NCBI RefSeq assembly: GCF_003955735.1
Contig: NZ_CP034464.1
Location: forward strand, 3,906,001-3,970,000
DNA length: 64,000 nt
Direction of reading: 5' to 3'
Source: Undibacterium parvum
GTDB lineage: Bacteria > Pseudomonadota > Gammaproteobacteria > Burkholderiales > Burkholderiaceae_D
Positions 1,392 through 16,698 of the stretch are shown piece after piece. A program made the position numbers and the translations under genes. The notes under the pieces were generated by a model that did not search any database, was not told the DNA's origin, and saw only the letters and a list, made by a program, of their open reading frames with translations. Within the stretch, counting starts at the first letter, position 1. Each line of letters begins with the position of its first letter.

Positions 1392-2957
1392 TTAACAAGG
1401 CAGCGGTAGCAGTTCATCAATCCGGCTGTTTGGATGCGTCGGTAATTTTTCGAGTGTGCCTTTAAGCCATGCCAAAGGTTCTATGCCATTGGCTTTCGCG
1501 GTGGCGAGCAGGCTTTGAATGGCGGCAGCTTGTCGGCCTGCTCGTTCAGAACCGGCGAAGAGCCAGTTCTTTTTGCCAATGGCAATAGGGCGAATGGCGT
1601 TTTCAATCGGATTATTGTCGATTGGCAGATGACCGCTATTGGCGTAGCGTTCAATCGCGCTCCAGCGTTTGAGGCTGTAGTCGATGGCTTTGGCGAGACT
1701 GCTGCCATCGGCGCTCTGTTGGCGTGTGTGAATCAGCCAGGCATGCATCGCTTTGAGTTCTGGCAGCGCCTGTGTAGCACGTCGTTGTTGTCGTTGTTCG
1801 ATACTGTCGCCTTTACCCTCGGCCTCAATGTGATACAGCTTTGCAATGCGTGTAAGTGCCTCATTGGCAATCGGATGCCCATTGGCGGCGTGCAGGTCGA
1901 AGAATTTGCGACGGGCGTGCGCCAGGCAGGCCAGTTCGGTGATGCCCAGCGCGAACAGGGCTTTGTAGCCGGCATAATCATCCACCATAAGATGGCCTTG
2001 CCAATGCCGCAGAAACGCGCGCGCATGACTGCCACTGCGTCCGGTTTGGAAATCGAACACGATGATGGCAGGCTGGTCTTCTAAGGCATTGCTGCGATAT
2101 GCCCATAGATAGGCACGCTTGGTCTTACCATTGCCGGGGTCGAGCAGCGGCACCGGGGTTTCGTCGGCATGCAGCACTCGTCCTTGCTTGAGTATTTCTG
2201 CCAACCGGTCACTGAGCGGTTGCAGGGCGACGCCAATACGTCCTACCCACTCGGCCAGTGTGGAGCGGGCAATGCCAACACCGTGTCGACTGCTGATTTG
2301 CTCAATCCGATACAGTGGTAAGTGATCGAGATATTTTTGAATTACCACCCATGCCAATAATCCTGGTGCCGCCAGACTACGATCGATCACTGCCGGGGGA
2401 ATGGCTGCTGCGGTGACTGTCTCACAAGCGCGACAGGCGTATTGAGGGCGAATATGCCGATGCACAAAGAAGCGTGCTGGTTCGACGTCGAGTTGTTCAC
2501 TGATGTCTTCACCGATCTTGATCAGGTCTTTGCCGCATTGAGCGCAGGTGCAGCTTTCTGGCTCATGACGATGTTCAATGCGCGGCAGTTCCGCTGGCAG
2601 TGGCCTACGTCCGGTAGGGCTTGGCTTACGTGGTGTTGTCGCTGAAGATAATTGGGCAAGCTCGGCCTGCATCGCAGCCAGGTCGCTTTGTTCGCACTCT
2701 AAAAACAGGTCGCGTTGTTGTACCGTAAACGCTTCGGCTTTTGCGCTGAATTTGAGACGTTTGTGATACGCCAGTTCTAAAGTCAAGGCTTGAATTTTGC
2801 ATTCTTTGACGTGAAGATCGTGCTCCTTGCGACGTAATTGATCCTGCAAAGCAGCCTTCTCCGCCTGTGCCAGTCCGGCCCCATTCAACTGCGCCATCAC
2901 CCATTGAGTCAGTGCGGGGTCAGCGTTGAATTGGGCGAGTTTGGTGGCGATATCCAT
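1392..2957 (-). CDS. tnpC: IS66 family transposase TnpC
   Basis: 521-aa DDE transposase, full length for the family. Order seen: N-terminal coiled coil and leucine-zipper-like region (about residues 20-100), a zinc-finger-like region with CTCAQCGKDL and CRAC (about 135-185), then the catalytic core with the first Asp in HADETPVPLL, the second in MVDDYAGYK and the Glu in NNPIENAIRP. The C-terminus IDELLPL is typical of IS66. It cuts and joins the element ends with the help of TnpA and TnpB. It is the last gene of the element, about 50 bp after tnpB. Confidence 0.96.
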   Translation of the reverse strand: MDIATKLAQFNADPALTQWVMAQLNGAGLAQAEKAALQDQLRRKEHDLHVKECKIQALTLELAYHKRLKFSAKAEAFTVQQRDLFLECEQSDLAAMQAELAQLSSATTPRKPSPTGRRPLPAELPRIEHRHEPESCTCAQCGKDLIKIGEDISEQLDVEPARFFVHRHIRPQYACRACETVTAAAIPPAVIDRSLAAPGLLAWVVIQKYLDHLPLYRIEQISSRHGVGIARSTLAEWVGRIGVALQPLSDRLAEILKQGRVLHADETPVPLLDPGNGKTKRAYLWAYRSNALEDQPAIIVFDFQTGRSGSHARAFLRHWQGHLMVDDYAGYKALFALGITELACLAHARRKFFDLHAANGHPIANEALTRIAKLYHIEAEGKGDSIEQRQQRRATQALPELKAMHAWLIHTRQQSADGSSLAKAIDYSLKRWSAIERYANSGHLPIDNNPIENAIRPIAIGKKNWLFAGSERAGRQAAAIQSLLATAKANGIEPLAWLKGTLEKLPTHPNSRIDELLPLPC

Positions 2958-3010
2958 GCACGAAAGTATACCTCGCCCGACCGAAAGTTAACAGGGGGAG
3001 GCATCCCTTT

Positions 3011-3358
3011 TTATACGCGCCAATTCGATTGTGGCGGCGCGTTAAGTCGGGGCCAGTCAACGCCCGTGGTGAGCCATTGCCATTCTTCGTTCGACAAGAC
3101 ACACGCCGCATCATGGCTCTGCGGCCAGACGAAGCGACCTTTGTGCAAGCGTCGCATACATAACCAAACACCGGTGCCATCCCAGATCAATAGCTTGATG
3201 CGGGTGCTATTCTTGTTACGAAATGCATAGGCACTGCCATCGCAAGGTGGCTTACCCAAACTTTCTTGTACATGCAGGGAAAGTCCGTCAACACCGCTGC
3301 GCATATCGATCGGTTCGACAGCGAGATACACCTGTGCCGGAGTCAGTGGCAGGCTCAT
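3011..3358 (-). CDS. tnpB: IS66 accessory protein TnpB
   Basis: 115 aa, the usual size of the IS66 Orf2 protein. It carries the family signature around AVEPIDMRSGVDGL and FRNKNSTRIKLLIWDGTGVWL. It is required with TnpA and TnpC for IS66 transposition, though its biochemical role is unclear. Its ATG overlaps the stop of tnpA by four bases, giving translational coupling. Confidence 0.95.
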   Translation of the reverse strand: MSLPLTPAQVYLAVEPIDMRSGVDGLSLHVQESLGKPPCDGSAYAFRNKNSTRIKLLIWDGTGVWLCMRRLHKGRFVWPQSHDAACVLSNEEWQWLTTGVDWPRLNAPPQSNWRV

Positions 3359-3756
3359 GGTAGTTGCCGCAGCAATTGCGCCAACACGGGTAAGTCAACA
3401 TGGTTAGAAATAGTCACCTGCCAACCGGCCGGGCTGCACAAGACAATCTCGGGAAGTGATGCCCTGATCGACACCGGCACCAACTTGCAAGGCTTCATGG
3501 CTGGCCGCGGCGATGTCGATGCGATTGTCGTGAGGGAGGTGTGCTTAGCTTGAGAAACTACTGGCGATTTTACAGCGGGTGTGGCAAGTGTGACACTCTG
3601 ATCAATAACGATGGAAGCGAGGCGTTTGCGCCAGGTATAAAACGTTGAATAGCCGATGGCTTCACGTCGACAATACGCGCTCAGTGATAAGCCGCTCTCA
3701 GCCCAGTGCTGCTGATGCTTAGTCCAAAACGCCACTTTGAGAGGATTGAAATTCAT
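3355..3756 (-). CDS. tnpA: IS66 accessory protein TnpA (HTH)
   Basis: 133 aa. The N-terminus resembles an HTH_Tnp_1 domain (WAESGLSLSAYCRREAIGYSTFYTWRKRL, about residues 17-45), as in other IS66 first-position proteins. It probably binds the element ends. It is the first gene of the tnpA-tnpB-tnpC operon, with its start about 80 bp inside the terminal repeat. Confidence 0.93.
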   Translation of the reverse strand: MNFNPLKVAFWTKHQQHWAESGLSLSAYCRREAIGYSTFYTWRKRLASIVIDQSVTLATPAVKSPVVSQAKHTSLTTIASTSPRPAMKPCKLVPVSIRASLPEIVLCSPAGWQVTISNHVDLPVLAQLLRQLP

Positions 3757-3809
3757 GCTAACTCCAGATCATTGAAAGAGTCGAGTGTCACTTATATCGT
3801 TATCGATTT

Positions 3810-3842
3810 CCAGATGGTTGCGTTGGACGCTTACAATCAAAA
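3810..3842. repeat. Right terminal inverted repeat of IS66 plus target duplication
   Basis: The right inverted repeat ends at 3834 (GTTGGACGCTTAC on the + strand), followed by the second copy of the target octamer AATCAAAA (3835-3842). The terminal repeat contains an in-frame ATG at 3814 that opens into the alpA frame. Confidence 0.92.
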
Positions 3843-4035
3843 AACATCACCCGCAAGACTCTTACGGCTCCCCAGCGTACTCGACAGAGTCCCATTCTCG
3901 AAAACGGAAATTTACCGGCGTGTACGCGCTGGCGAATTCCCTAAGCCTATCACTATCGGCATTCGCGCCGTGGCATGGCTAGAGTCAGACATCGACCAAT
4001 ACATTCAAAAGCTGACGACAGGTGCAGCCCAATGA
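3814..4035 (+). CDS. AlpA-family regulator, N-terminus replaced by IS66-derived residues
   Basis: AlpA proteins are small MerR-like winged-helix activators of satellite and prophage genes. The body carries the family hallmarks: LRLPSVLDRVPFSKTEIYRRVRAGEFPKP (HTH) followed by AVAWLESDIDQYI. The native start (1334) is separated from the body by IS66. Reading through the inverted repeat, the frame now begins at ATG 3814 as MVALDAYNQKTSP instead of MTNQKTSP, so the domain itself is intact. No good Shine-Dalgarno precedes 3814, so expression is doubtful. The frame is open back to 3706. It overlaps the next gene by ATGA and heads the operon leading to the replicase. Confidence 0.85.
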   Translation: MVALDAYNQKTSPARLLRLPSVLDRVPFSKTEIYRRVRAGEFPKPITIGIRAVAWLESDIDQYIQKLTTGAAQ

Positions 4036-4636: not shown

Positions 4637-4923
4637 CAGCGTCACTTGCAATTCGACCGGACAAGGTTTACTCTTCGTTTGTCACTGAAAAAGAAGTGAT
4701 CGAGTATGAGAGCTCGAAATGTACAAGGCGAACAAGCCGCCCTGCGGCTATTATTTTGTTCGTGTATACCCTTGTTGCGCCTTCAATGGACGGCAGTGGT
4801 AGGGACGCCGCAAGGCGTGCCGGTTGCCTTGTACGCCGGTCTCTCAACCCTGCCATTTGCCGTCCCCCCTATTTGAGAGTAGGGAACGGTTTAACCGTAC
4901 AAGGAGCATCACATCATGGCTAG
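4633..4923 (+). CDS. Doubtful Icd-like reading frame across the antisense-RNA locus
   Basis: A 96-aa frame whose ATG overlaps the previous stop. The first 40 residues could be genuine. The rest reads through the structured RNA region at about 4795-4900, giving a low-complexity Arg/Pro/Cys stretch (SGRDAARRAGCLVRR). Similar frames in other phages are labelled host cell division inhibitor Icd-like, because icd of phage P1 overlaps the C4 region. It also runs eight bases into the next gene. I consider the RNA the more likely functional unit. Confidence 0.4.
   Translation: MTASLAIRPDKVYSSFVTEKEVIEYESSKCTRRTSRPAAIILFVYTLVAPSMDGSGRDAARRAGCLVRRSLNPAICRPPYLRVGNGLTVQGASHHG
4795..4890 (+). ncRNA. Candidate P4-CI / P1-C4-type antisense immunity RNA
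   Basis: Three copies of one word are arranged as in the P4 immunity region. GTACAAGGC lies upstream at 4721-4729 (seqA-like). Its complement GCCTTGTACG is at 4826-4835 (seqB-like). CGTACAAGG recurs downstream at 4896-4904 (seqC-like), forming the Shine-Dalgarno of the gene starting at 4916. Around seqB are the hairpin ACGCC-GCAA-GGCGT (4805-4818) and a longer stem CTCTCAA (4840-4846)/TTGAGAG (4873-4879). In P4 and P1 such RNAs pair with the leader to block expression of downstream lytic or replication genes. RNA ends are estimates. Confidence 0.6.
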
Positions 4924-5516: not shown

Positions 5517-8468
5517 ATGACACAGTTTCATAACGACCGCCCCAGCATAGAGGCGATACAAGCTGCACTTACTTTCATACCTCCGAATGATCGCGCCTTA
5601 TGGCTCAAGGTTGGTATGGCCTTAAAAGCAGAATTGGGCGACACAGGTTTTGATCAGTTTGATAGCTGGAGCCAGAACGCAGAAAATTACGACATGGCCG
5701 CCAGTAAATCGGTCTGGAAGGGCTTTAAAGCCGGTGGCAAGATCGGCATAGGGACACTGTTCTTTGAAGCCAAGCAAAGGGGTTTTAATCCCAAAGACCA
5801 CGCACCTGCCGCAGCATTAAGCGCCGAAGAAACGGCACGAATCAAACAAGAACGTGAGCAACGCCTTGCCGCTGATCAGGCCGAGATAGAACAGAATCAG
5901 GCGGCAGCGGCCAGTATCGCGGCGACCACATGGGGTACTGCGAAAGACAGCGGCGAATCTGCTTATCTGGAAAAGAAGCGTGTCGCCGCCCATGGTCTAC
6001 GTTTTGCAGCCCACAAAGCGGGCGCGGTGCTGTTAGTGCCGGTGTGGGATGAGCACGGCAAGCTGTGGAATATTCAGCGCATCTTTGCCAGCGGCGATAA
6101 ACGGTTTTATACCGGCGGGCGGGTGTCTGGCTGCTTTCACTGTATCGGGGAAATTACCGCCTCAGAGTGGTTATTGATTGCCGAAGGTTACGCCACCGGC
6201 GCGACTCTTTTTGAAGCCACTGGCCATGCCGTTGTAATTGCTTTTAGTGAGACCAATGTGAAGCATGTAGCGGCCATCATGCGGGCGCGTTATCCAGAAA
6301 AGCGCATTCTGATTTGTGCCGATGATGACAGCCAGACCGAACAAAAGACCGGAAAAAATCCTGGCATAGTAGCGGCCACCGAAGCGGCCAAAGCCATTCA
6401 AGCCTTATGGTGCAAGCCCTTGAATTTGCCAAAAGAGGGCAACGATTTTAATGATCTGGCACACGCCATGGGCAACGAGGAAGTGACAAGGCAAATTGCT
6501 GTAACCATGCAAACAGTGCCCAGCCAGACAAGCGCCAAAGCCTCGCCAGTAAACCAAAACAGCGCACAAGCGATAAATGAAGAACCGTTGAAGGCGAACA
6601 AGGTCAACGCAGAAAAAACGCCTGAAAAGCCGACTGAAAAGCCACCGGCTAAACCACGCCAAACGAGCAACCGCAAAAGCGCCGGTGACGGCCAGTCTTC
6701 CAAACCGTTTTTTACTTCCAATGACGGCGGCGTATTCTTCCATGCCTTCCATGAGGGGGAGCCGTTGCCCGCCATGAAGATTTGCTCGCCCCTTCATGTG
6801 GTGGCAAAAACCCGTGATGCGGCAAATGGGGAATGGGGCTACCTTCTGGAATTCACCGACCCTGACGGCCACCAAAAACGCTGGTCTATGCCCGCCAAAA
6901 TGCTGGCCGGTGACGGCACACAATACCGCTCTGATTTGCTGTCTATGGGTTTGATGATCGAGGCTGGCCTAAAGGCTAAAAATTATCTGACGACCTACAT
7001 TCAAACCGCCGATGTTCCGGATCGGGTGCGATGCGTTGACCGTACCGGCTGGCATGATGATGTGTACGTGCTGCCAGATCGCACCATAGGAACGGGAGAG
7101 GAACAAGTCTTGTTTCAGACCATGGGCGGGGCAAATTCCGCATTTAAGCAGCGCGGCACTTTGGAAGAGTGGCAAACCCATGTGGCGGCACATTGTCGCG
7201 GCAATTCACGCATGCAGTTTTTTATCTCTACCGCCTTTGCTTCGACGCTACTACATCATGCAGGTGTACCCAGCGGCGGCTTTCATATCTGGGGCGATAG
7301 CTCAACCGGAAAAAGTACCGCCGTGATCGTGGCCGGTTCGGTGTTTGGCGGGGCAGATTACAAGAAGAGCTGGCGGGCAACCGATAACGCCTTGGAACCA
7401 ACGGCACAGCAATATTCGGATGCCTTGCTGATCTTGGATGAACTGGCGCAAGCTGACCCGAAGACGGTGGGCAATGTGGTGTACATGCTGGGCAATGAAG
7501 CCGGTAAAGGTCGGGCAACCCAAAACGCCACGGCCAAGAGAATTGCCACTTGGCGCTTATTGTTTATCAGTGATGGTGAGATCAGTTTATCTGGCCACAT
7601 GGCCGAAGTGGGTAAGGCGACTAAAGGCGGCCATGATGTACGCATGGCACATATCAGCGCCGATGCAGGCAAAGGTTTGGGCGTCTATGAGACCGTGCAC
7701 GACTTCGAAGGTGGCGCGGCCTTGTCCGACCATTTAACCAAAGCCGCGCACCAGTATTACGGCACGGCGGGCTTGGCCTTCATTGAATGGGCAGTGTCGC
7801 AATCTAGCGCCTTACGTTCATTGATGGCGAAAGAACTCAACAATAAACTGCAAGAGATTTGCCCGAAAGACGCACACGGCCAAGTGTCCCGTGTGGCGAC
7901 CCGCTTTGCTTTAGTGGGGCTGGCCGGTGAAATGGCAACCATCGCAGGAATTACCGGCTGGGCGGAAGGCGAAGCGACCGAGGCGGCGGCAACTTGTTTT
8001 AATGATTGGCTGGCTAGCCGTGGCGGCGCGGGCAATATCGAACATGACCGCATGCTGTCATTATTGCCCGATTTTATTCGAGTAAATGGCGATGCCCGTT
8101 TTGGCTGGAAGCACAGGGAATTGGATGATCACGCACCGAAGATCATCAACCAAGCGGGCTTTAGGCGCATGGTAAGTAAGAGTGGGACAGCGATAGACAG
8201 TAACACCGCCCACGGCAAGGAGTATGGCGACAAGGTGCATCCGGACGAAGCCAGCGGCGCAACGATTGAATACTTCATTGACCCGAAGGTTTTCTCTACC
8301 GAGATTTGTCGTGGTTATGACGCTAGGGCTGTGACTGCAAAGCTGGTAGCGGCGGGCGTGTTTGAAGTCGGCAAAGATGGCAAAAGCAGCGTACAGGCAC
8401 GCTATGCTGGAGCCAATAACCGTTACTACAAAGTATCCAGTGAAAAGCTGAGTGAGTTACATATTTGA
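5517..8468 (+). CDS. PriCT-2 / Toprim / DUF927 replication protein (primase-helicase)
   Basis: 983 aa, the replicase of the element, functionally parallel to the P4 alpha protein. Domains in order: PriCT-2-like N-terminus (about 10-85, WLKVGMALKAELGDTGFDQFDSWS); Toprim domain (about 215-310, IAEGYATGATLFEATG then ICADDDSQ); Pro/Lys-rich linker (about 345-400); DUF927-type helicase with Walker A GDSSTGKST (about 590) and Walker B ALLILDELAQ (about 637). It should prime and unwind the element during its own replication, probably from the iteron cluster at 11.2-11.3 kb. Preceded by GGGGCGC five bases from the ATG. Last gene of the early operon. Confidence 0.92.
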   Translation: MTQFHNDRPSIEAIQAALTFIPPNDRALWLKVGMALKAELGDTGFDQFDSWSQNAENYDMAASKSVWKGFKAGGKIGIGTLFFEAKQRGFNPKDHAPAAALSAEETARIKQEREQRLAADQAEIEQNQAAAASIAATTWGTAKDSGESAYLEKKRVAAHGLRFAAHKAGAVLLVPVWDEHGKLWNIQRIFASGDKRFYTGGRVSGCFHCIGEITASEWLLIAEGYATGATLFEATGHAVVIAFSETNVKHVAAIMRARYPEKRILICADDDSQTEQKTGKNPGIVAATEAAKAIQALWCKPLNLPKEGNDFNDLAHAMGNEEVTRQIAVTMQTVPSQTSAKASPVNQNSAQAINEEPLKANKVNAEKTPEKPTEKPPAKPRQTSNRKSAGDGQSSKPFFTSNDGGVFFHAFHEGEPLPAMKICSPLHVVAKTRDAANGEWGYLLEFTDPDGHQKRWSMPAKMLAGDGTQYRSDLLSMGLMIEAGLKAKNYLTTYIQTADVPDRVRCVDRTGWHDDVYVLPDRTIGTGEEQVLFQTMGGANSAFKQRGTLEEWQTHVAAHCRGNSRMQFFISTAFASTLLHHAGVPSGGFHIWGDSSTGKSTAVIVAGSVFGGADYKKSWRATDNALEPTAQQYSDALLILDELAQADPKTVGNVVYMLGNEAGKGRATQNATAKRIATWRLLFISDGEISLSGHMAEVGKATKGGHDVRMAHISADAGKGLGVYETVHDFEGGAALSDHLTKAAHQYYGTAGLAFIEWAVSQSSALRSLMAKELNNKLQEICPKDAHGQVSRVATRFALVGLAGEMATIAGITGWAEGEATEAAATCFNDWLASRGGAGNIEHDRMLSLLPDFIRVNGDARFGWKHRELDDHAPKIINQAGFRRMVSKSGTAIDSNTAHGKEYGDKVHPDEASGATIEYFIDPKVFSTEICRGYDARAVTAKLVAAGVFEVGKDGKSSVQARYAGANNRYYKVSSEKLSELHI

Positions 8469-8644: not shown

Positions 8645-9163
8645 ATGCATCCAATTGGCGAAATGGGTATGGAAATTGTGGCTCGGCATTTGCAGGAGCA
8701 AGCCGAGTCTAAGGCTCCCTCCCATGAGGGGGATCTTTTTGGGCGTTCCGCGTTTAACCGATATTATTACGCTGCGTATCTGGAAGTTCGATTTGGCTTA
8801 AGTGGGTGGAGGCCTGAGTGGAAAGGGGATATGGCACATGCGAAGATTCCAGAAATACTAAGAGGACAAGTTTTAAGAACGTTAAAAACTGGACTTCGGG
8901 CAGCGGAGAGAAATAGTGATAATGAAGTTGCTTCATTATGCAGTGGCGGTATTACTGCAGCTAGAGAACTTGCACAATTAATGGATAACGGTCGAAGTGC
9001 GCGGGTGACGGCAGATTACAACCCTGAGATTAAAGTGGAATTCAGACCTGATACAAATTTTAGACTCAATACTGTAGGAGTCCATGAAGCAAGGTCTTGG
9101 CCAGTTAAAGCCAGAACGTGGGTAAATATAATTTCGCAAGCGTGGAGGCAAGTTGATGAGTAA
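8645..9163 (+). CDS. Unknown protein of the retron-like operon, HEPN-like helix pattern
   Basis: 172 aa; ATG 8645 or the in-frame ATG 8663, neither with a good ribosome site. I do not recognise the family. The segment FNRYYYAAYLEVR (about residues 38-50) resembles the first helices of HEPN/Abi-type domains (RYYYAAF-like). A C-terminal RLNTVGVH fits the loose R-X(4-6)-H pattern of HEPN ribonucleases, but lies in a region that does not look helical, so the assignment is weak. It overlaps the next gene by eight bases and is co-directional with the retron RNA and RT. By analogy with other retrons it may be an effector or half of a toxin-antitoxin pair. Confidence 0.75.
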   Translation: MHPIGEMGMEIVARHLQEQAESKAPSHEGDLFGRSAFNRYYYAAYLEVRFGLSGWRPEWKGDMAHAKIPEILRGQVLRTLKTGLRAAERNSDNEVASLCSGGITAARELAQLMDNGRSARVTADYNPEIKVEFRPDTNFRLNTVGVHEARSWPVKARTWVNIISQAWRQVDE

Positions 9164-9890
9164 TAACGTTGAAATACAGTCTCGCTTACATGATCTCGAA
9201 ATACCATGTACTGGCGCGATTGTGCGAGGTGACCTAGGAGAAAAACACTTTTTTGTACATGTGCCAATATTGAGAAGTGCTGAGAACAAACAAATACCAC
9301 CTAATAAAAAATTAAATTTCGCAAAAGAACTTTTTGCGAAAGAAGGTATTTCCATTGATTTTCTGTTGCATGATGATTTTGGGCTTGATGTCGAAGGTGG
9401 CTTGCGAGCAACGATTTTGCATACTTTTGGTGATTCTGTGCGAAATATTTTTTTGTCAATTTCTGAGGGGGTTGCATCTGTTTGGATTGACCCCAAAGTG
9501 GCGCTAGAGCCTGAAAAATTGGCAGAAATCAAGAATAGAGCAGAGCAGTTTCTTTTTACTTTTGATATTGAGAATGTTGGTGTTGCAGTGACTACGGGTG
9601 AGAAACTACCGAGCATATTAGTTTGTCTTCGGACTATTCGGACACTGGCACCAATTATGAATCACGCTTTACTTACCGAGCTTGTGAATGGAGGCTTTTC
9701 GATTCCATCACTTGATTGGTTGAACCGCCGTCTTGATGTAATGCGAAAAGACGGGAAAATTATTCGAAAAGAAGACGGCACTTATGTTTTATCCTTGATA
9801 AGCTTAGAGAAACTAGGGTCTGAACGCGGAAGGGGCAGTCCCGATATCAAACGCATACTTGCGCTTGGGAGGGGGGCGATGATACGATAG
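9156..9890 (+). CDS. Unknown protein of the retron-like operon with C-terminal winged helix
   Basis: 244 aa. ATG 9156 is preferred over TTG 9153 because GGAGG sits eight bases upstream; the start lies inside the previous gene. The N-terminal about 150 residues are alpha/beta and unrecognised (GEKHFFVHVPILRSAENKQIPP, SISEGVASVWIDPKVAL). The C-terminus (about 165-215: LLTELVNGGFSIPSLDWLNRRLDVMRKDGKIIRKEDGTYVLS in pattern) looks like a winged helix, suggesting nucleic-acid binding. Its stop codon lies inside the predicted msr-msd RNA. That is strong evidence that the two genes, the RNA and the RT form one transcript. It could be the retron effector partner or a regulator. Confidence 0.8.
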   Translation: MSNNVEIQSRLHDLEIPCTGAIVRGDLGEKHFFVHVPILRSAENKQIPPNKKLNFAKELFAKEGISIDFLLHDDFGLDVEGGLRATILHTFGDSVRNIFLSISEGVASVWIDPKVALEPEKLAEIKNRAEQFLFTFDIENVGVAVTTGEKLPSILVCLRTIRTLAPIMNHALLTELVNGGFSIPSLDWLNRRLDVMRKDGKIIRKEDGTYVLSLISLEKLGSERGRGSPDIKRILALGRGAMIR

Positions 9891-10031
9891 CAACGTGGGG
9901 GTCTCGGCGAGAGTGTGTATCATGCTCAATTTGCCAAGATTATGCTTTAGAAGGGTGCCGTAAAAAGATTCGGTGCTCCTTCGAAGCCCCGAATATTTTT
10001 ACGGCTCCTATATGAAAGTTAGACTTTGCTA
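9888..10031 (+). ncRNA. Retron-like msr-msd RNA
   Basis: It lies between the effector-like gene and the RT, where retron RNAs sit. A long msd-type hairpin has arms at 9957-9973 (GCCGTAAAAAGATTCGG) and 9989-10005, pairing at 16 of 17 positions around a 15-nt loop. Upstream, GGCGAGAG...TATCAT (9906-9923) strongly resembles the branch-point region of Ec86 (AGCGAGAGGTTTATCATTAAGG) and folds into a small stem (9911-9927, UAU loop). The ends can pair as a1/a2: TAGCAA (9888-9893) with TTGCTA (10026-10031), plus GTCT (9901-9904) with AGAC (10021-10024). The branching G is probably 9906 or 9907. Ends are estimates. Confidence 0.75.
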
Positions 10032-10032
10032 A

Positions 10033-11013
10033 ATGAGGCTCCCACAACCCCTCCTCGACTCACCTTACTTCCAATTTAGTACAGTTAACGAACTTTGTAA
10101 GGCCGCAGGGGATCCTGATTCAGCAGAAGTCATGGAAATAAGACGCTTAGATGCTCTTAATTTACCACCTGTAAGTTCAAGGCAAATACTGGGATTAATG
10201 TTCGGGTTGAATTCTGGCTTAATTTGGTCATTTCAAAGCCGCACGCATCGCTACTACCGAACATTTAATATTCCTAAAGGGAACCGTCAGAGACGTATTG
10301 ATGCGCCTTGTGTCGGTCTAAAAGCTATTCAGAAATGGTTGGCAACTCAGCTACAAGGCGCGTATAAAGTGCCGGATCATGTCTTTGGTTTTGTTGCTGG
10401 ACGCTCTCATATTGATGCTGCTTCTGTACATGCACAGGCGGTTTGGGTGTTGTCAGTGGATATACGTGATTTTTTTCAAACTACACCAAAATCGCTCGTT
10501 AAAACTAGGCTTCTCGAGTTGGGTTTCTTAGAGAAGGGTGCAGAACTTATCGCATCATTATGTTGCTTGCGTGATAATCTCGCACAGGGCGCTCCAACTA
10601 GTCCATTACTTTCAAATGTATGTTTTATTCATGTAGATCAACAACTTTCTTACCTTGCTGATAAATATAACTTAAGGCTTTCGCGATATGCTGATGATAT
10701 TGTTTTCTCTGGGAAAGGCCAATGTCCGGATACTTTAAGAGACGAATTAGAGTCCCTTTTTATCGGCAGTACTTGGGTACTGGCGCCAGAGAAGACAGAG
10801 TTGGTATCACTCCCTAAAAGATTGAAAGTTCACGGCCTGTTAGTTCATGGTGAAAATATTAGACTTACAAAAGGATATAGAAACAAAATACGCACGTACA
10901 AACATTTGCTAGCAACAAAAGGGGCGGAGTTGACCAACTCAGAAAAAATAAAAGGTCATATATCGTACGAAAAATATGTTGATCTGGTAGTTGATGCGCA
11001 ACGTAATACTTAA
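10033..11013 (+). CDS. Retron-type RNA-directed DNA polymerase
   Basis: 326 aa, normal retron RT length. Motifs in order: IPKGNRQRRIDAP (RT1), VFGFVAGRSHIDAASVH (RT2 with DAxxxH where retrons have NAxxH), SVDIRDFFQT (RT3, about 143), LAQGAPTSPLLSN (RT4, about 185), SRYADDIVFSG (catalytic YADD, about 218) and a C-terminal VHG where most retron RTs have VTG (about 264). It should reverse-transcribe the msd part of the RNA immediately upstream into multicopy single-stranded DNA, and in known retrons also guards or controls an effector. The ATG two bases after the a2 arm lacks a clear ribosome site. Divergent motif residues suggest a less common clade. Confidence 0.95.
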   Translation: MRLPQPLLDSPYFQFSTVNELCKAAGDPDSAEVMEIRRLDALNLPPVSSRQILGLMFGLNSGLIWSFQSRTHRYYRTFNIPKGNRQRRIDAPCVGLKAIQKWLATQLQGAYKVPDHVFGFVAGRSHIDAASVHAQAVWVLSVDIRDFFQTTPKSLVKTRLLELGFLEKGAELIASLCCLRDNLAQGAPTSPLLSNVCFIHVDQQLSYLADKYNLRLSRYADDIVFSGKGQCPDTLRDELESLFIGSTWVLAPEKTELVSLPKRLKVHGLLVHGENIRLTKGYRNKIRTYKHLLATKGAELTNSEKIKGHISYEKYVDLVVDAQRNT

Positions 11014-13440: not shown

Positions 13441-13560
13441 TCAAAAGCCACGTCAAAAGCAGAGTCAAAAGCCAGGTCAAAATCCAAGTCAAAAGCCGAT
13501 TCAAAACCCAGGTCAAAAGCCGATTCAAAACCAAGGTCAAAAGCCGAGTCAAAAACAGCG
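13441..13560 (+). repeat. Ten tandem 12-bp units TCAAAAGCCRRR
   Basis: Exactly ten contiguous 12-mers starting TCAAAA. Odd and even units alternate in part (TCAAAAGCCGAT / TCAAAACCCAGG), suggesting growth by duplication of 24-bp pairs. They form the loop of the long inverted repeat. The unit length keeps any reading frame open, so computed frames here encode Lys/Ser repeats and are not genes. Confidence 0.95.
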
Positions 13561-15994: not shown

Positions 15995-16304
15995 AGGATG
16001 CTCCAAAAATATTGGGGTCGTCCCCGAATGTAAAATAGAGTAGACGGGTCGTCCCATCGACTAGGGTGTTGAAAATTAAGCTTCGTGTTGATCCTGCACG
16101 TCAAATCGTAAAAATAGAATTTGAGAACTGCTTGCAGCGTAGCGGTCTGGAATGAATCGCCACTTTGGCACACTAATTACGATTGTAAGCGATGGGCTAA
16201 TTGTATTGCTAGTAATTTAAACATCAGTCTGGCAGGGCGTAAGCTTTGAGTAGGCATTAATCCTTGCTGGGGTATTGGTCTTTATGGAAGTTCAAAACAG
16301 GCAG
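15995..16304. other. Gene-free stretch, no feature recognised
   Basis: About 310 bp upstream of the lactonase gene. GGGGTCGTCCCC and GACGGGTCGTCCC (16014-16055) are short GGGTCGTCCC-type direct repeats that could be regulator sites. Nothing else is recognised. Confidence 0.3.
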
Positions 16305-16607: not shown

Positions 16608-16698
16608 TGGCGGAGAAACGGGGATTCGAACCCCGGGTAGGCTATGAACCTACGCACGCTTTCCAGGCGTGTGACTTAAACCACTCATCCATCTCTCC
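16608..16698 (-). tRNA. tRNA-Ser (anticodon GGA)
   Basis: 91 nt with encoded CCA. The acceptor stem GGAGAGA pairs with TTTCTCC. The anticodon stem CACGC/GCGTG carries the loop CTGGAAA (GGA anticodon, reads UCC/UCU). A long class II variable arm (GTAGGTTCATAGCCTAC) is typical of tRNA-Ser. T-arm CGGGGTTCGAATCCCCG. Confidence 0.97.

Follow-up and report, generated by a model that had tools for sequence, protein, structure and literature searches.

A retron-like operon in Undibacterium parvum raised the question whether it represents a new retron type with effector proteins of its own or belongs to a type already described. It lies in a stretch of 64,000 nucleotides (contig NZ_CP034464.1, positions 3,906,001 to 3,970,000 of the forward strand), called the window below, to which all coordinates refer unless a locus is named. 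An initial annotation, made from the letters of this DNA, proposed an unrecognised pair of accessory proteins preceding a foldable RNA and a retron-type reverse transcriptase (RT).

Operon layout

The gene order was as annotated, with two overlapping genes followed by an RT gene on one strand, and all frames were open. The YADD motif was located in the third protein.

8645-9163, + strand: HEPN gene, 172 aa; type IX HEPN RNase effector with predicted active site H65 and R120, substrate residues Y40-42 and helper residues H15 and Q19
9156-9890, + strand: winged-helix (WH, HTH_IX) gene, 244 aa, overlapping the HEPN gene by 8 nt; predicted binder of the msDNA tip
10033-11013, + strand: retron RT gene, 326 aa; YADD at residues 219-222

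The gap between the WH and RT genes is 142 nt. ATG codons at 8645, 8663 and 8669 are candidate starts for the HEPN gene, and the alignment of the HEPN_IX profile to the protein starts at residue 9. The RNA noticed between the second and third genes was recovered on folding (9891-10050, −63.9 kcal/mol, z −6.8, none of 200 shuffles as good). The absence of terminators held for the spaces between the genes, but a simple scan placed a + strand candidate inside the HEPN gene at 8715-8733. This was the only place on the + strand, reported as two overlapping rows, and the scan gave three rows in total against 2.1 expected from shuffles. The operon is present in one copy in the genome.

Assignment to type IX

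Profile searches with the models of PADLOC matched the first protein to HEPN_IX (E 5.3e-51), the second to HTH_IX (E 3.4e-65) and the third to RT_IX (E 5.7e-124). The RT scored 411 bits with RT_IX versus 213 bits with the next type, RT_III-A, clade membership being judged here by profile score and not by a tree. In the PDB, the best matches of all three proteins were chains of one complex, Retron-Kva2 (36ht), the queries being profiles built from the HEPN and WH relatives and, for the third protein, the sequence of the window RT. The E values with the Kva2 chains were 3.4e-16 for the HEPN protein alone (phmmer) and 6.9e-51 for its profile, 2.5e-13 for the WH protein (phmmer) and 2.9e-59 for the RT. 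The reading of the locus as a retron operon, with a HEPN-like effector and a winged-helix partner, was thus upheld by both sets of matches.

The HEPN_IX, HTH_IX and RT_IX models were already contained in the PADLOC-DB of 2023, and the text passages of a preprint of July 2026 describe the cryo-EM structure and mechanism of the type IX retron-Kva2 from Klebsiella variicola (PMC13405049). Judged by its sequence, the window operon is of this already described kind and a new member of it.

Relatives of the operon

A scan with the HEPN profile gave 37 loci in a species-genome collection and six in IMG/VR, to which two plasmid records were added; the scan of phage records gave none. Four duplicates (L001-L003, L009) and L004, a generic HEPN without WH or RT, were left out of the counts. 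Because the survey was seeded from the HEPN, its counts cover RTs that accompany one. Among 46 non-redundant HEPN loci, the window included, 38 have the order HEPN, WH, gap and RT, their WH and RT matches lying 144-176 nt apart. Five others are cut by contig ends (L026, L031, L033, L044, L050) and three lack the full operon and resemble remnants, with a damaged HEPN (L030), a lone HEPN (L032) or a shortened WH (L043). The suspicion that the homologues might occur mostly without an RT was not borne out, only these last three being without one for a reason other than a contig end.

The type IX retron is rare: HEPN_IX matched in three of 398 genomes of the phylum, that of U. parvum included, and one of these matches was the generic HEPN of L004. 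The type IX HEPN encoded at positions 5995-6501 of L032 is of full length and retains every key residue, and no WH, RNA or RT was found in the 12.4 kb of this locus. This HEPN is an orphan toxin, a remnant or an assembly effect.

Effector, partner and reverse transcriptase

In the Kva2 HEPN, H64 and R122 are catalytic, Y40-42 position the substrate and H10 and Q14 contribute (PMC13405049, text passages). By hand count on the alignment, the window residues H65, R120, Y40-42, H15 and Q19 match these. Y40, Y41, Y42, H65 and R120 were invariant in all 44 aligned HEPNs, the incomplete L030 and L044 having been left out. Five loci from the viral collection (L046-L050) carry Y40-42, H64 and R122 at Kva2's own numbering; H10 is kept in four of the five and is a Y in L049. 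One of them, L047, can be aligned with Kva2 nearly end to end in both HEPN and RT. The canonical R-phi-x3-H motif was not found, the window HEPN having no R-x4-H; according to the passages of PMC13405049, it is also absent from Kva2 and other type IX HEPNs, where the site consists of H64 and R122.

For the WH protein of Kva2, contacts at the msDNA tip (D190, N193, D197, R200, K201) and along the stem (R50, Q51, N54, K57) are given in the same passages. The window WH has all five tip residues by hand count (D187, N190, D194, R197, K198), and on the stem side it has N50, K51, N54 and K57, two of the four differing from Kva2. In 36 WH proteins, with L020 and L038 left out for having two WH pieces each, D194 was conserved in 35, R197 in 30, K198 in 27, N190 in 19 and D187 in 12. 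On this alignment the residues contacting the tip differ between family members, though the window is identical to Kva2 at all five.

The YADD of the Kva2 RT stands at 221-224 (PMC13405049, text passages). The deposited Kva2 RT starts with MKTPLPL and aligns from residue 1 with the RT of L047, which supports the RT start codon used here. In four of the 38 complete loci (L019, L029, L035, L042) the RT start was taken as GTG.

Structure of the non-coding RNA

Four elements make up the consensus fold of an alignment of 16 loci: the a1/a2 helix, the msr hairpin, a long hairpin in the msd and one further, small hairpin.

9895-9905, + strand: a1 arm of the closing helix, paired with 10035-10045; 97.2% of cells paired over the 16 loci
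9906-9908 with 9933-9935, + strand: outer pairs of the msr, which comprises helices 2 and 3; 100% paired
9911-9917 with 9921-9927, + strand: msr hairpin of the consensus fold; 100% of cells paired
9949-10008, + strand: predicted msd template with predicted ends, AGAA plus a long hairpin with a CUUC loop
10014-10029, + strand: small hairpin GAAAG/CUUUGC between msd and a2 (helix 6, 4 pairs, 95.3% paired)
10035-10045, + strand: a2 arm of the closing helix, from the last base of the RT ATG to the first base of codon 5

Over the 16 loci, 94.7% of cells paired, against 34-45% once the partners were slid by one to three columns, and 24 of 41 pairs showed changes on both sides, a number reached by none of 500 shuffles. 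These tests are biased in favour of the structure, which had been predicted from the very alignment they used. Taken alone, the count of further pair types was unremarkable, 70 of 500 shuffles reaching it. A covariance model built from the 16 loci leans less in this way when applied to held-out loci, where it found the RNA in all 22 complete ones and in none of nine controls (L004, L053-L060). In 20 of these 22, the RT is at most 51% identical to any RT in the model; the other two, L027 (92%) and L020 (88%), are near kin of model members. The matches in L022 and L039 came without the a1/a2 helix. Partial matches were obtained in the contig-cut L033 and L050, and no match in the six incomplete loci L026, L030, L031, L032, L043 and L044. 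Two minus-strand matches, one at the RNA of the window (E 1e-5) and one at L029 (E 0.004), are taken as the mirror of the same hairpin. Rfam gave no family at gathering score over the ncRNA of the window. As far as these alignments can tell, the ncRNA is structured as in retrons, with an a1/a2 helix and with hairpins in both msr and msd.

By analogy with Ec86, the priming G is presumably 9906 or 9907. The msd hairpin (helix 5) has 14 pairs, 12 of them with changes on both sides. Reverse transcription should end at the AGAA of the msd, and the predicted msDNA is a stem-loop with GAAG at its tip, copied from the hairpin with the CUUC loop. The msdDNA of Kva2 is 55 nt long and its labelled bases are G26, A27, A28 and G29 and T57, T58, C59 and T60 (PMC13405049, text passages); by hand count these labels fit the msd motif on L047 and are one base off in the window.

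A closing helix that reaches into the RT gene

The 5' edge of the RNA had been drawn across the stop codon of the WH gene, a placement that has to be revised, for the conserved a1 begins 4 nt past this stop. A TAGCAA/TTGCTA closing pair (9876-10038, z −3.3, 2 of 200 shuffles as good) was absent from the consensus fold of the 16 loci and was rejected. The 3' arm a2 that pairs with a1 lies inside the RT gene; the fold reached z −6.8 with a2 included and −3.3 when ended before it. In a search limited to the gap and the RT gene up to its nucleotide 45, 37 of the 38 complete loci had a helix of 9 bp or longer, free of gaps, between the two, and the remaining one, L034, had a helix of 8 bp. In L047, the RT codons matching the Kva2 RT start form a2.

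The pairing of a1 with the RT gene might be a by-product of conserved RT codons, with no selection on the RNA. Under a synonymous-recoding null, only 21 of the 38 loci reached p 0.01 and the window itself gave 29 of 1000 (0.029); this null is not decisive at single loci, so that covariation is the stronger evidence for a1/a2. The restricted search space and the unremarkable count of further pair types also lean towards a by-product. Against it, compensatory changes occurred in seven of the 11 a1/a2 pairs over the 16 loci, and the third positions of RT codons 2, 3 and 4 covary with matching changes in a1 (columns 45-205, 42-208 and 39-211, with 5, 3 and 5 double changes). At third codon positions a change has the least effect on the protein. 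With the loss of pairing in slid structures added, a by-product is very improbable, and the comparisons indicate that the type IX ncRNA ends inside the RT gene. Since a2 is within the RT coding sequence, the same transcript can be both translated and used as template.

This layout was also sought in 28 other RT loci (L053-L080), the best hits of RT_III-A, of which 26 were scored with guessed start codons, L078 and L080 having yielded no RT start. In nine of the 26, the helix was reached by at most one in 100 shuffles. Within these nine, a2 lies inside the gene as called in five, namely four RT_III-A loci (L058, L062, L074, L076; each 1 of 100 shuffles as good) and L055, of type XI with an uncertain start codon. 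It lies upstream of the gene in the other four (L053 and L056 of type I-C, L071 and L073 of type XIII). In the four RT_III-A loci, the stretch partnering the first RT codons starts 195-226 nt before the start codon. An a2 inside the gene as a feature unique to type IX is hereby ruled out, the same layout occurring in some other retron RTs. Type III-A, the next best model for the window RT with about half the RT_IX score, has effectors other than those of type IX. In Ec86 (Eco1), whose RT is related to the window RT by sequence (E 2.7e-22) and whose msr motif is similar, the end of a2 falls immediately upstream of the RT start codon and the effector is a ribosyltransferase-like protein.

No mention of an a2 within the RT gene was met with in the text passages of PMC13405049, PMC6868368, PMC12548924, PMC8989520 and PMC3335539, nor among the matches listed in the text of PMC12262390. 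The words 'overlap' and 'start codon' are absent from the main text of PMC13405049.

Genomic setting

The operon follows a primase gene, with further mobile-element features upstream.

L083 5012-5101: tRNA-Ser, about 2.9 kb before the window
L083 5213-6532: phage-type integrase, 1.5-2.8 kb before the window, beside the tRNA-Ser
1392-2957 and 3011-3358, − strand: IS66 transposase genes (Pfam)
3355-3756, − strand: third gene of the IS66 region, no Pfam match
3706-4035: AlpA-type regulator
4783-4870: C4 antisense RNA (Rfam, 65 bits)
5517-8468: DUF927/PriCT-2/TOPRIM primase, upstream of the retron

The order of integrase, AlpA-type regulator, C4 RNA and primase is that of a P4-like satellite; here the retron follows the primase. 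The IS66 genes (1392-3756) sit between the integrase of the satellite and the AlpA-type gene. A right-hand attachment repeat of the island was looked for and not found. Downstream, a tandem array of a 12/36-base unit was observed at 13441-13554, and a Guanidine-II riboswitch at 16013-16060 on the − strand, about 550 bases from a − strand tRNA-Ser (16608-16698).

Proposed mechanism and alternatives

The window very probably holds an apparently intact type IX retron at the end of a P4-like satellite, with a complex, trigger and tRNA cleavage like those of Kva2 and with the 3' arm of its ncRNA in the RT gene. The parts, their conservation, the key residues and the RNA structure are shown by the present comparisons; the complex, the trigger and the tRNA cleavage come from retron-Kva2, where the HEPN RNase is kept inactive by RT, winged-helix protein and msDNA until a phage DNA-binding protein releases it to cut tRNA (PMC13405049, text passages). 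In the window retron, reverse transcription of the msd portion by the RT would yield a short hairpin of msDNA and, by analogy, the HEPN dimer would be held inactive by RT, msDNA and winged-helix protein. A phage DNA-binding protein might bind the msDNA tip, where the winged-helix protein is seated, and so break up the complex; the freed dimer would then cut tRNA through H65 and R120, and growth would stop. Both systems consist of HEPN, WH, ncRNA and a YADD RT and share the catalytic, substrate and msDNA-tip residues, and the window msd hairpin fits the labelled GAAG tip of Kva2. The window differs in its placement in a satellite, in two of the four stem-side WH residues and in its HEPN and WH sequences. 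Since its proteins are distant from those of Kva2, trigger and tRNA specificity may differ.

A new retron type, suggested by the initial annotation and by the failure of the HEPN and WH proteins to match any Pfam or NCBIfam family above cut-off, is ruled out as nearly as such a reading can be: each of the three proteins has its match among the type IX models of PADLOC, with RT bits nearly double those of any other type, and the trio has already been solved as Retron-Kva2. It is scarcely more credible that HEPN and WH are a toxin-antitoxin pair merely beside an RT. The HEPN of L032, alone in its locus, and that of L043, with a shortened WH and no RT, would agree with such a pair, against which stand the fixed order of WH, gap and RT in 38 of the 46 HEPN loci, with five more cut by contig ends, and the recovery of the RNA in every held-out complete locus. 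The copy in the window could also be a dead retron carried along by the satellite, a reading which nothing directly favours; with all frames open and the catalytic residues, YADD and RNA pairing intact, it is quite unlikely, if less so than the others.

Within the intact type IX retron, the a1/a2 helix might also be a built-in translation switch, an idea we regard as rather doubtful. A ribosome finishing the WH gene would free the RT start, and without a ribosome the same RNA would fold into the template, so that each transcript would be either RT message or msDNA precursor, which would set the ratio of RT, WH and ncRNA in the complex. In all 38 loci the start of a1 is close to the WH stop codon, at the codon itself in L019 and L040 and at most 15 nt past it elsewhere, and a ribosome ending the WH gene would, by its size, cover a1; such spacing could also result simply from the compactness of operons. 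The computed pairing probability of a1 with a2 had a median of 0.97 and exceeded 0.5 in 37 of the 38 loci, the helix being improbable in L035 (0.12). When a1 was barred from pairing, the mean unpaired probability of the region −15 to +18 rose from 0.37 to 0.49 (35 loci up, two down, one equal), whereas for the AUG it dropped, from 0.54 to 0.47, which speaks against a switch. Occlusion of the RT start codon by the closing helix is thus only partly supported by these computed folds.

The question of a new retron type is settled by these results, there being none here. What is added is sequence evidence that the type IX ncRNA ends inside the RT gene; recoding the RT or expressing the ncRNA apart could cut off a2 and lose the closing helix. 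If this helix also gates translation of the RT, it would suggest how the parts of the retron are made in proportion.
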